Positions 1,780 through 3,851 of a DNA stretch of 12,623 nucleotides are shown here, piece by piece (the first letter of the stretch is position 1; each line of letters opens with the position of its first letter). The position numbers and the translations under genes are program-made. This DNA is from Muribaculaceae bacterium (lineage in GTDB: Bacteria; Bacteroidota; Bacteroidia; Bacteroidales; Muribaculaceae). Under the pieces are notes generated by a model that ran no database searches, was not told where the DNA came from, and saw nothing but the letters and a program-made list of their open reading frames with translations. Where the stretch lies: positions 1 through 12,623 of the forward strand of contig JAIDKP010000354.1 of the NCBI GenBank assembly GCA_029051445.1, in the 5' to 3' direction.

Positions 1780-2972
1780 TTTGCCAGGTGCTCTATGTAG
1801 GTTGCCATATCTTTGTCGCCGCGTCCCGATAGGTTTACCACGACAATATCGTCTTTGTTGAATCTGATCTTTTCAAGTCCGGCAAGGGCATGCGATGATT
1901 CCAGTGCGGGTATGATGCCCTCGTTACGGGTGAGGAACGCCGCTGCCTCCAGAGCCTCGCTGTCGGTTGCGGCGAGTACTTGCGTGCGCCCCGATTCGGC
2001 CAAAAAGGCATGGAGCGGGCCTACTCCCGGGTAGTCGAGTCCTGCCGAGATCGAGTAGGGCTCTATGATCTGTCCGTCGGCGGTCTGCAGCAACATTGTG
2101 CGTGATCCGTGCAGAATGCCGGGAGTTCCGGTGAGTATCGAGGCGGCTGTCATGTCGGTATCGGTGCCGAGTCCGGCAGCCTCGACTGCCACAAGCTTAA
2201 CGTCCGGATTATCGATGAAGTGGTAGAATGCTCCGGCGGCATTGCTTCCGCCGCCTATGCAGGCGATCACATAATCGGGGTTCTCGCGTCCTTCTTTTTC
2301 GAGAAGCTGCGCCTTGATCTCGCGGCTTATCACCGATTGAAAATAGGCTACCATTTCAGGGTATGGGTGAGGTCCTACAGTGCTTCCTATGACGTAAAAT
2401 GTGTCTGTCGGATTGCAGCACCAGTCACGTATGGCCTCATTGGTTGCATCTTTCAGCGTCTTGTTGCCGGAATGTACCGGGCGTACTTCGGCACCAAGCA
2501 TGCGCATGCGCTGCACGTTGGGTTGCTGGCGTTCGACATCGGTAGCACCCATGTACACGACGCATGGCATACCAAGCAGAGCTGCCACGGTCGCAGTGGC
2601 GACACCATGCTGTCCGGCTCCGGTTTCAGCTATAAGGCGTGTCTTGCCCATGCGTTTTGCCAGAAGTGCCGATCCGATCGCATTGTTGATCTTATGTGCG
2701 CCTGTATGGTTAAGATCCTCGCGTTTCAGATAGATGTTTGCTCCGTAGCGGTGTGAAAGGGATTCTGCCTTGTAGAGTGGCGACGGACGTCCTACATAGT
2801 CGGCAAGCAGTGACTCGATTTCGCTTATAAATGTCGGATCGCCGAGGGCCTCGGCAAACGCTTTTCTGAGGTTCATTATATTACTGTGGAGAATTTCCGG
2901 AATGTAGGAACCTCCGAACCGGCCATAAAATCCGTTCTCATCGACCGGCAGTGTTGTTGTCTTGTGATTCAT
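1776..2972 (-). CDS. trpB: Tryptophan synthase beta chain
   Basis: This PLP enzyme condenses indole with serine to give tryptophan; the partner TrpA is expected further along the operon, outside the window. With the start chosen here the protein has 398 residues, the usual TrpB length. Lys94 in HTGAHKINN (89-97) should hold [11 protein letters not shown] (116-123) carries the catalytic Glu116, and GGGSNA (240-245) binds the cofactor phosphate. The reading frame also has an ATG at 2994-2996, but that codon lies in the 3' arm of the attenuator hairpin and would add MVFFLYTD, encoded by the terminator T tract. The ATG at 2970-2972 gives [10 protein letters not shown] and directly follows the terminator, so it is preferred. 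trpB as the first structural gene is a known Bacteroidetes arrangement. The stop overlaps trpE by 4 bp. Confidence 0.97.
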
Positions 2973-2980
2973 GTCAGTAT

Positions 2981-3033
2981 ATAAAAAGAAAACCATCGAT
3001 GGTCAGTCTGTTAAACCGGATCCATCGATGGTT
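2981..3033 (-). terminator. Rho-independent terminator (attenuator) in the trp leader
   Basis: On the minus strand a perfect 12-bp stem, AACCATCGATGG (3022-3033) with CCATCGATGGTT (2991-3002), encloses a 19-nt loop. It is followed at once by TTCTTTTT (2983-2990), a T-rich tract. The structure ends 8 bp before the trpB ATG and about 50 bp after the stop of the Trp-rich leader ORF. That is the layout of a conditional terminator. It should also stop read-through from the gene upstream (3234-3851). Stem, T tract and position are seen directly; conditional use is inferred. Confidence 0.9.
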
Positions 3034-3109
3034 GTAAGTATTGTTGTATATCGTTAAGTCATGCGGAAAAAAGTACACACGTCAACGCCATCGGGAGGGA
3101 TCCTTCCGA
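3018..3109 (-). promoter_or_regulatory. Antiterminator and pause hairpin of the trp attenuator
   Basis: Two further structures share bases with the leader ORF and the terminator. First, TCGGAAGGATCCCTCCCGA (3091-3109) folds into a 7-bp hairpin with one A-C mismatch and a 3-nt loop. It starts 3 nt after the tandem Trp codons and fits a pause (1:2) hairpin. Second, the end of the leader ORF can pair with the 5' arm of the terminator: GGATCC (3098-3103) with GGATCC (3018-3023), CGATG (3089-3093) with CATCG (3026-3030), and GTTG (3083-3086) with CAAC (3031-3034). This pairing excludes the terminator stem. A ribosome stalled at Trp13-14 leaves it free; a ribosome at the stop codon covers its 5' half. 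Confidence 0.8.
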
Positions 3110-3153
3110 CGCCACCAATAAAACTTGCTGTTGAAGTTTGGTATTGTTGACAT
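3082..3153 (-). CDS. trpL: trp operon leader peptide (23 residues, WW and W)
   Basis: This short ORF of 23 codons, ATG at 3151-3153 and TGA at 3082-3084, lies between the trp promoter and the attenuator. Residues 9-16 are SKFYWWRR and residues 20-23 are SRWR, giving Trp13, Trp14 and Trp22. Three tryptophans in 23 residues, two of them adjacent, are far above normal use and are the hallmark of a ribosome-mediated attenuation sensor. The peptide itself probably has no function; the ribosome's position on these codons would decide between terminator and antiterminator. The ATG is about 27 nt from the predicted transcription start. No clear Shine-Dalgarno is seen, which is normal for Bacteroidetes. 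The call rests on sequence layout only, with no database comparison. Confidence 0.88.
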   Translation of the reverse strand: MSTIPNFNSKFYWWRRKDPSRWR

Positions 3154-3185
3154 GTTTTTGATGAGATATTTATATTATTTCAATG

Positions 3186-3217
3186 CAAAAATATGGCAGT
3201 ATACTGTTATATGCAAA
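3186..3217 (-). promoter_or_regulatory. trp operon promoter (Bacteroidetes -33/-7 type)
   Basis: On the minus strand a -33 TTTG (3214-3217) and a -7 TATTTTTG (3186-3193, matching TAnnTTTG) are separated by 20 bp, the spacing of the primary sigma factor promoter in Bacteroidetes. Transcription should start near 3179-3181 and give a leader of about 207 nt before trpB. The -33 box lies only 16 bp past the stop of the upstream gene, so the trp operon has its own promoter in a short gap. Confidence 0.75.
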
Positions 3218-3222
3218 TTTTT

Positions 3223-3248
3223 ACTTGATTTTTTTACTTGATTTTTTT
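3223..3248. repeat. Perfect 13-bp tandem duplication at the end of the DUF4923 gene
   Basis: ACTTGATTTTTTT occurs twice in a row (3223-3235 and 3236-3248). The right copy encodes the last residues of the minus-strand gene (IK, then TAA at 3234-3236) and the left copy lies just past its stop. Because each unit carries its own AAG-TAA end, gain or loss of a copy would leave the protein end unchanged. It may reflect replication slippage at the poly-T runs. The left copy is about 5 bp from the trp -33 box. Confidence 0.85.
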
Positions 3249-3851
3249 CAATACAAATCCGGCGGTGAGTCCGTCATAGGAGTTCAGTATGGATGACACT
3301 GATTTCATAGAGGAATTACCGGTGACTGATGCTATGGTGTTTACGAGGCTGATCAGTTTAGAAACATCGAACGTGACTTTTATTTGTCCTGTCGCAGTCT
3401 TTGAGATGTAGGCATTTAGTGATCCGGCACTTATCTTGCCAATTGCCTTAAATTTAAAAACAAATTCTCCGTCGTTCTCTCCCCGGACTATTTCGCCGGA
3501 GAAGGAAATCTTCTTCAATGCCATTTTGAAGGTGGCGGCAGAGTCAACTGCAAGAGTCATGTTGTCGAGACCGACAGTGCTATAATACGGGCGAAGTTTA
3601 TCGACAATGGTTGTCGAGGCTACTGAGCCTCCGGCTTTTTTGAGCAGGTTGTCACTCTTGAATTCAACAGCCGGTTCCACATATGTCCAGTTTCCTTCAA
3701 GATCAGCAATTGTGACTTTGCCAGAGCCGAGCACATTATTGGCGACTGTGCCGAGTTTGGAGAGAATATCGGAGACCGACTGTGCCGATGCCGTGTTGGG
3801 GGTGATGATTATGGCACTTATAATGGCAAACAGAAGTATAAGTTGTTTCAT
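3234..3851 (-). CDS. Exported DUF4923 family protein
   Basis: The function is unknown. The 205-residue protein starts with a signal peptide: MKQ, a hydrophobic stretch LILLFAIISAIII, then TASAQS with a likely cleavage after TASA or AQ around residues 22-25. There is no lipobox Cys, so a periplasmic or surface location is inferred. The rest resembles DUF4923 as I know it from Bacteroidetes: an early GNWTYVEPAVEF segment (54-65), SDNLLKKAGG (66-75), a middle strand-rich part with AFKM/FSGEI-type sheets, and a closing LNSYDGLTAGFVLKKIK. The overall look is a lipocalin-like or beta-barrel fold, which is inference. The ATG lies 9 bp after the M20 gene stop, so it is probably the last gene of the long minus-strand operon. 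The trp promoter starts right behind it and no terminator of its own was seen. Confidence 0.8.
   Translation of the reverse strand: MKQLILLFAIISAIIITPNTASAQSVSDILSKLGTVANNVLGSGKVTIADLEGNWTYVEPAVEFKSDNLLKKAGGSVASTTIVDKLRPYYSTVGLDNMTLAVDSAATFKMALKKISFSGEIVRGENDGEFVFKFKAIGKISAGSLNAYISKTATGQIKVTFDVSKLISLVNTIASVTGNSSMKSVSSILNSYDGLTAGFVLKKIK

Follow-up and report, generated by a model that had tools for sequence, protein, structure and literature searches.

The window analysed here, a stretch of 12,623 nt from a Muribaculaceae genome, carries a tryptophan operon whose elements all lie on the minus strand, in the order DUF4923 gene, promoter-like site, leader ORF, hairpin, T tract, trpB, trpE and trpG. 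The first structural gene, trpB (1776-2972, with its ATG at 2972), matches NCBIfam TIGR00263 at 600 bits (cut-off 392). It is followed by trpE (388-1779), for which TIGR00564 scores 407 bits, under its cut-off of 517.7, and in which the Pfam domains Chorismate_bind and Anth_synt_I_N are found. A partial open ORF (3-374, MKLLVFDNYDSFTYNIVHTL...) continues past the window edge, and we take it to be trpG from its glutamine amidotransferase motif GICLGHQ. This is the trpBEG order proposed in the initial annotation. A longer trpB ORF starts at 2996, which is unlikely to be the true start since this position falls within the hairpin. The trp leader is immediately preceded, on the same strand, by a lipocalin-like DUF4923 gene (3234-3851; Pfam PF16270), whose end is 80 nt from the leader ATG.

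The leader ORF (3153-3082) has 23 codons (MSTIPNFNSKFYWWRRKDPSRWR) and contains, as initially read, tandem Trp codons at positions 13 and 14 (UGGUGG, 3117-3112), the presumed sensing site, and a further one at position 22. Forty-eight nt downstream (about 50 nt in the initial annotation) begins a perfect 12-bp stem in which region 3, the ascending arm (3033-3022, AACCAUCGAUGG), pairs with region 4, the descending arm (3002-2991, CCAUCGAUGGUU); the 19-nt apex of this hairpin itself forms another 6-bp stem. The hairpin runs into the T tract of an intrinsic terminator (TTTTCTTTTT, 2992-2983), whose first two T lie within region 4. The tract is separated from the trpB ATG by 10 nt, and the 8 bp given initially result from counting from 2981; the other positions and counts of the initial annotation stand. 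A simple consensus terminator scan, which permits loops of 3-8 nt only, called no terminator at the locus. Two further segments complete the arrangement: region 1 (3111-3106, CGUCGG), which pairs with 3094-3089, and region 2 (3094-3084, CCGAUGGCGUU), the putative antiterminator strand, which includes the Trp22 codon (3090-3088) and extends into the stop codon. The predicted fold of the 197-nt leader RNA is exceptionally stable (z = -4.2; 0 of 200 shuffles equally stable), as is that of the terminator (z = -3.9; 1 of 200). Taken in isolation, the 1:2 hairpin is unremarkable (z = -0.6, with 57 of 200 shuffles at least equally stable) and the antiterminator stretch gives a mild signal (z = -1.65; 14 of 200).

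The promoter-like site (3217-3186), identified by motif match, consists of TTTG (3217-3214), a 20-nt spacer and TATTTTTG (3193-3186). The pair TAnnTTTG and TTTG is the Bacteroides promoter consensus quoted by a transcriptome study (PMC7366714). The pattern TTTG-N17-23-TAnnTTTG has its sole match in the 12.6-kb window at this site, 32 nt upstream of the leader ATG; by chance, a mean of 0.16 matches per shuffle is expected, with at least one match in 30 of 200 shuffles. Of 48 leaders of the family (27 from the uniform detector described below and 21 further ones), 42 have the shorter pattern TTG-N17-23-TAnnTTTG no more than 90 nt ahead of the ATG, against a mononucleotide-shuffled mean of 0.3. 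This pattern is also present in 41 of 60 leaders from the 'order' and 'named' sets of other Bacteroidales, where 10 of the named loci duplicate or resemble family loci.

Conservation of the leader ahead of trpB

A trpB search over 99 genomes of the same family, including that of the window, yielded 33 full-length TrpB loci at 66% identity or more, 32 of which have at least 150 nt of upstream sequence. These were scanned with a uniform detector that calls an ORF with TGGTGG or TGGnnnTGG, an ATG 4-32 codons upstream of it, and then a hairpin with a T-rich tail. Such a WW or WxW leader with terminator precedes trpB in 27 of the 33 loci; of 9206 mutually overlapping control windows from other parts of the loci, the detector called 82. 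Since homologous leaders stand at most same-family trpB loci, we regard the observation as settled. Homologues lacking either the Trp codons or the stem had been named at the outset as the finding that would speak against it; the homologous leaders carry both. The alignment of related trpB upstream regions suggested at the same time reveals a conserved WW leader ORF together with covarying stems.

The detector scored no leader at L024, which has just 69 nt of upstream sequence; the leader lies on another contig of that genome (L153). Five loci have enough upstream DNA and no scored leader (L007, L009, L010, L027 and L028), of which L028 has TGGTGG but also ambiguous bases in its sequence. At L027, as at L070 (in a record titled Duncaniella sp.), an ORF resembling the leader has just one Trp codon (LRWRRFG) and stands before a weak hairpin; this may be an attenuator in decay. 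At L009 and L010 (genus g13) a TAnnTTTG box can be seen by eye immediately upstream of trpB. At L007 (G026, of the window's own genus) a gene ending like the DUF4923 gene of the window overlaps the trpB ATG (TAATG), and promoter, leader and terminator are all absent, which reflects either deletion of the attenuator or an assembly join. A full-length TrpB of the window type occurs in just 33 of the 99 family genomes, some of them incomplete, and tryptophan synthesis looks patchy in the family.

A covariance model (model R1), built from 27 family sequences and including stems 1:2 and 3:4 but not 2:3, was run over 178 family genomes and gave a match at E of at most 0.1 in 82 of them, many of these weak. 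Of its 41 hits at 38 bits or more, which comprise all 27 training places and 14 non-training ones, 40 adjoin trpB, as judged from the positions of the trpB search or by tblastn; at G092 the evidence is a 26-residue TrpB match, in a frame containing stop codons, at the edge of the contig that carries the hit. For the remaining strong hit (G264, L162) the available sequence stops 92 nt past the hit. We examined 18 further hit regions, 8 from the 41 and 10 weaker, and found trpB just downstream in 12, including four hits below 38 bits (L170, L172, L175 and L177). Six hits of 27-36 bits have no TrpB within 2.6 kb (L169, L171, L173, L174, L176 and L178) and are probable false hits. One of these, L171 (G312, genus g30; 35.8 bits), has a YWW ORF at 451-546 of the reverse complement and could be a false hit, a remnant, or a control element of another gene.

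The same genus g30 contains L165 (G320), whose TrpB is 84% identical to that of the window despite the different genus, and L172 (G271), whose TrpB is 65% identical; a TrpB match was absent from all 4 g30 genomes included in the trpB search. This pattern suggests that the trp operon was transferred together with its attenuator.

The distance between hairpin and trpB bears on how the hairpin could act. In the window, region 4 ends just 18 nt before the ATG, and one could imagine that the hairpin masks the trpB start region and is opened by translation of the leader. Across the 27 family loci, however, the distance from the hairpin to the trpB match ranges from 17 to 149 nt, on which ground we reject a control of the trpB translation start and rate it improbable. 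A T-rich tail after region 4 points in the same direction, although it is weak evidence because the tail was a selection criterion of the detector.

Other known regulators find no match. No Rfam family, T-box or other, reaches its gathering score in the window, and relaxing the search to E 10 over positions 2900-3300 gave 7 matches, all far under their cut-offs. The TRAP protein (TrpBP, PF02081) and TrpR (Trp_repressor, PF01371) are each over cut-off in 0 of 59 family genomes, among them the window's own (88% complete); a single sub-cut-off match to PF01371, at 21 bits, was seen in G012.

Competing stems and the third Trp codon

Covariation was assessed on an alignment of 27 family leaders (A1), five rows of which are misaligned in the region 2 block, and one of them, L029, in region 3 too; all were counted unchanged. 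For the terminator stem, 95.7% of the cells are standard-paired (83.4 in shuffled alignments), 36 cells are changed on both sides at once (9.3 shuffled; 0 of 500 shuffles reach this), and 7 of 9 pairs are changed on both sides, which 4 of 500 shuffles attain. Sliding one partner lowers pairing to 17-58%. Counting pair types gives no significant excess (132 of 500 shuffles). The 2:3 stem shows only a moderate excess on A1, with 86.4% standard pairs against 82.1 in shuffles and 12 double-changed cells against 4.4; neither its doubly changed pairs (116 of 500) nor its pair types (148 of 500) are significant.

We also compared, independently of any alignment, the pairing of each leader with its own terminator arm and with the arms of other loci, using leader positions 13-50 only and 20,000 permutations. 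Here the 2:3 pairing is highly specific: no permutation matches the own pairings, either in 26 training loci or in 21 further family loci. Of these 21, 16 were obtained through model R1 and 5 through TrpB in named records, the latter assigned to the family, by our own choice, on the grounds of record title and a TrpB identity of 68-75%. Pairing of the leader with the loop plus the first 6 nt of region 4 is matched by 3690 (26 loci) and 4970 (21 loci) permutations, and a version with the whole leader gives the same picture for the 26 loci (0 for 2:3; 3214 for loop and region 4). The 1:2 pairing likewise is matched by 0 of 20,000 permutations in the 47 family leaders. Comparative evidence thus supports all three stems that compete in classical attenuation (1:2, 2:3 and 3:4) as structures predicted from sequence.

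The DUF4923 gene lies upstream on the same strand and ends only 80 nt before the leader ATG, so that the hairpin might be thought to be merely its terminator, with the WW ORF arising by chance. The promoter motif, however, separates this gene from the leader in the window, leaders of this kind recur ahead of trpB across the family, and the three competing stems covary; on these three grounds we reject this explanation and consider its probability close to nil.

The position of region 2 is informative about the sensor. UGGUGG is unchanged in all 27 rows of A1, which were preselected for WW or WxW. Counting from the first Trp codon, region 2 has its first paired base at 20-26 nt in 24 of 26 training loci and 19 of 21 further family loci; the start of the stop codon, by contrast, varies between 16 and 79 nt across the 47 family leaders. 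As this spacing is fixed and the stop is variable, region 2 appears to be positioned relative to WW and not to the stop codon, which is expected if a ribosome stalled at WW must leave region 2 free.

The initial annotation had listed Trp22 alongside the tandem codons. In the window, codons CGA-TGG are located inside region 2. Among the 47 family leaders, region 2 contains a Trp codon in 24, is part of the ORF but free of Trp codons in 18, and follows the stop in 5. Because only 24 of 47 leaders have a Trp codon there, Trp22 looks like a part of the RNA structure of region 2 seen through the genetic code, and the antiterminator sequence explains it better than sensing does; given the leaders in which region 2 lacks Trp (18 of 47) or lies beyond the stop (5 of 47), we reject it as a sensing codon. 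At six loci of other Bacteroidales (L094, L100, L108, L117, L129 and L135) the tandem itself reads Trp-Arg-Trp (YWRW) in place of WW.

In TnaC, the nascent leader peptide senses free tryptophan. A similar role for the present peptide, which is short and has Trp residues, is very improbable: the peptides differ widely in length and sequence outside the WW core, and the conserved stretches after WW coincide with RNA stems.

To describe the effect of a ribosome, the 47 family leaders were folded with a 15-nt mask (masks of 12 and 18 nt gave a nearly identical outcome). With the mask at WW and the transcript extending up to region 3, the leader is predicted to pair with region 3 by at least 5 bp in 47 of 47, whereas 2:3 forms in 14 of 47 with no mask; the first count offers a weak contrast, as some leader pairing with region 3 also arises in 34 of 48 other Bacteroidales. 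Masking region 2 instead lets the terminator form in all 47. At full-length equilibrium with WW masked (15 nt), the terminator is still present in 46 of 47, and antitermination would therefore have to be kinetic.

Relation to Rfam RF01692 and antiterminator wiring

A 2010 survey of candidate RNAs is reportedly the work of Weinberg and colleagues. Rfam RF01692, 'Bacteroid-trp', is listed in Table 1 of that survey of 104 candidates (PMC2864571). It is a curated family, described as a Bacteroidete tryptophan peptide leader RNA, and takes in trp leaders from other Bacteroidales. The window element, which lies upstream of trp genes in a member of the Bacteroidota and has a Trp-rich leader ORF, sits and would act like RF01692 and is probably related to it. 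RF01692 (gathering score 49 bits) nevertheless has no match in the window, neither at gathering nor up to E 10, and under stricter filters it is over cut-off in 0 of 99 family genomes (best 40 bits, G083), with a positive Bacteroides control. The Rfam search recommended initially thus has as its outcome an existing family that does not match the window. In a set of 20 loci, it exceeds its cut-off at the trpB leader in 4 of 11 order-level loci (L048, L041, L037 and L035) and in 0 of 9 family loci. Its consensus segments AAagUCgU and GGCUUGUC are not found in the window, which carries CCGAUGGCGUU and AACCAUCGAUGG instead.

The element could be an ordinary RF01692 leader, wired as in other Bacteroidales, with the separate wiring an artefact of conservation or scoring. 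Position, YWW leader and promoter type are shared, and model R1, run on 73 sources comprising the window plus loci not used in training, matches all four RF01692-positive loci in the same place (E 1.2e-5 to 0.037), a signal that may largely be the YWW core. Against this stand the failure of RF01692 in the window and the family and the opposite outcome of the pairing tests elsewhere. Of 28 order-level trpB loci, 16 have a leader and terminator called by the detector, as do 44 of 80 named ones; 10 of the 44 were left out of the 'others' (five family duplicates and five reassigned to the family), leaving 34, and the order-level and named others overlap slightly (e.g., L107 and L045). In the 34 named others it is the leader:loop/region 4 pairing that is specific (0 of 20,000 permutations) and the leader:region 3 pairing that is not (10,991 of 20,000), the reverse of the family. 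The 15 order-level others, whose sequence is nearly invariant, show specificity for neither (9843 for loop/region 4 and 6783 for 2:3, of 20,000), which leaves room for a common wiring. In order-level others, leader:loop/region 4 pairing reaches -11.7 kcal/mol versus -6.9 with shuffled leaders, while leader:region 3 pairing is no stronger than with shuffled ones (-8.0 versus -8.2 kcal/mol).

Individual loci can also be compared for their stronger partner. In the trimmed comparison, 40 of 47 family leaders pair more strongly with region 3, and 41 of 48 others with loop/region 4; trimming was adopted after the untrimmed result. Untrimmed, with the whole of region 4, region 3 is stronger in 17 of 27 family loci, loop/region 4 in 9, with one tie, the 9 being compatible with an ordinary RF01692 leader; in 16 order-level loci, loop/region 4 is stronger in 15 and one is tied. 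In the window itself, the 2:3 stem extends over just 6 bp (-9.8 kcal/mol) and ranks as the second weakest among 26 family loci; region 3 of the window is nearly palindromic, so that region 2 could pair with region 4 as well, and with the whole leader set against the whole loop and region 4 the latter is the stronger partner (-14.1). Given the opposite permutation and per-locus results, we regard a single RF01692-type wiring throughout as unlikely, while according it more weight than the alternatives discussed above.

We instead lean towards two antiterminator wirings among Bacteroidales trp attenuators, one of which was converted into the other while the WW codons, promoter type and position were retained. 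In Muribaculaceae, the leader strand would capture the ascending arm of the terminator, as in classical 2:3 pairing; elsewhere among the sampled Bacteroidales, the leader would capture the loop and descending arm in a 2:4-like manner, with a presumed antiterminator role. If correct, attenuators can be re-wired while keeping their sensor.

Proposed attenuation mechanism and known systems

Based on the above data, we propose that transcription of the trp operon in the window is very probably controlled by a ribosome-mediated attenuator, which has diverged from Rfam Bacteroid-trp but is probably a relative of it. The stalling at WW put forward in the initial annotation is the best supported reading of the sequence, and homologous leaders keep both the Trp codons and the stem. 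The transcription start would lie about 25-30 nt upstream of the leader ATG, judging from the promoter motif, and a ribosome would translate the 23-codon leader. When charged tRNA-Trp is scarce, the ribosome would stall at Trp13-Trp14 and cover region 1 just downstream, leaving region 2 free to pair with region 3; the 3:4 hairpin would then fail to nucleate, and RNA polymerase would continue into trpB-trpE-trpG. When tryptophan is plentiful, the ribosome would reach region 2 and the stop codon, allowing the 3:4 hairpin to form. With no ribosome, region 1 would pair with region 2 and the 3:4 hairpin would likewise form. Either way, transcription would stop about 10 nt before trpB. We infer that antitermination is decided during RNA synthesis. 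Cross-genome comparison supports the leader, its WW codons, the promoter motif, the terminator, the three stems and the fixed WW-to-region 2 distance; the start site, termination, stalling and the response to tryptophan are predictions of the model.

The initial suggestion of an element new or poorly documented in this lineage holds in part. As a kind it is not new, since RF01692 exists, and it is this family that RF01692 misses; the regulator is thus of a known kind, of which the family variant is invisible to Rfam and apparently differs in its antiterminator. Vitreschak and colleagues reportedly name Bacteroidetes/Chlorobi in the abstract of a FEMS paper from 2004. In the open-licence literature, we found no paper on the trp leader of this family. 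A 2019 paper on Flavobacterium psychrophilum compares the RF01692 RNA with the E. coli trp leader (PMC6414381). The 2020 Bacteroides thetaiotaomicron transcriptome paper notes that long 5' UTRs hold short ORFs reminiscent of attenuation leader peptides, and the word 'tryptophan' is absent from its main text (PMC7366714). Our results point to leader-peptide attenuation as a control of trp genes in many of the Bacteroidales sampled, among them a family where 0 of 99 genomes reach the RF01692 cut-off, and they account for the frequent third Trp codon by RNA structure and not by the peptide.

The trpL attenuator of E. coli and other enterobacteria is the textbook model of alternative 1:2, 2:3 and 3:4 stems. 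Its hallmarks recur here: a short tandem-Trp leader ORF ahead of the first trp gene, an intrinsic terminator between leader and first gene, recognised by sequence and fold, and mutually exclusive 1:2, 2:3 and 3:4 pairings, indicated by covariation and folding. Unlike in E. coli, the operon starts with trpB and has a promoter motif of the Bacteroidota type; region 2 extends across the last codons of the ORF, where it may specify a third Trp; and TrpR is over cut-off in 0 of 59 family genomes. Actinobacterial trp attenuators, as described in a 2005 paper (PMC1262725), share the double or triple UGG codons and the 'complementary triple' of segments 2-3-4, which reads gGCC-rGCy-GGCC there and commonly CGAUGGC-GCCAUCG-CGRUGGC here. 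With RF01692 the element shares its place before Bacteroidota trp genes, the tandem-Trp leader ORF and the terminator right afterwards; it differs in its sequences, AAGUCGUGAG and GGCCUGUCG there against region 2 CGAUGGC and region 3 GCCAUCG in this family, and in the predicted partner of region 2, the ascending arm here and the loop plus descending arm there. Two related natural designs of one attenuator would make the evolution of antiterminator wiring testable.
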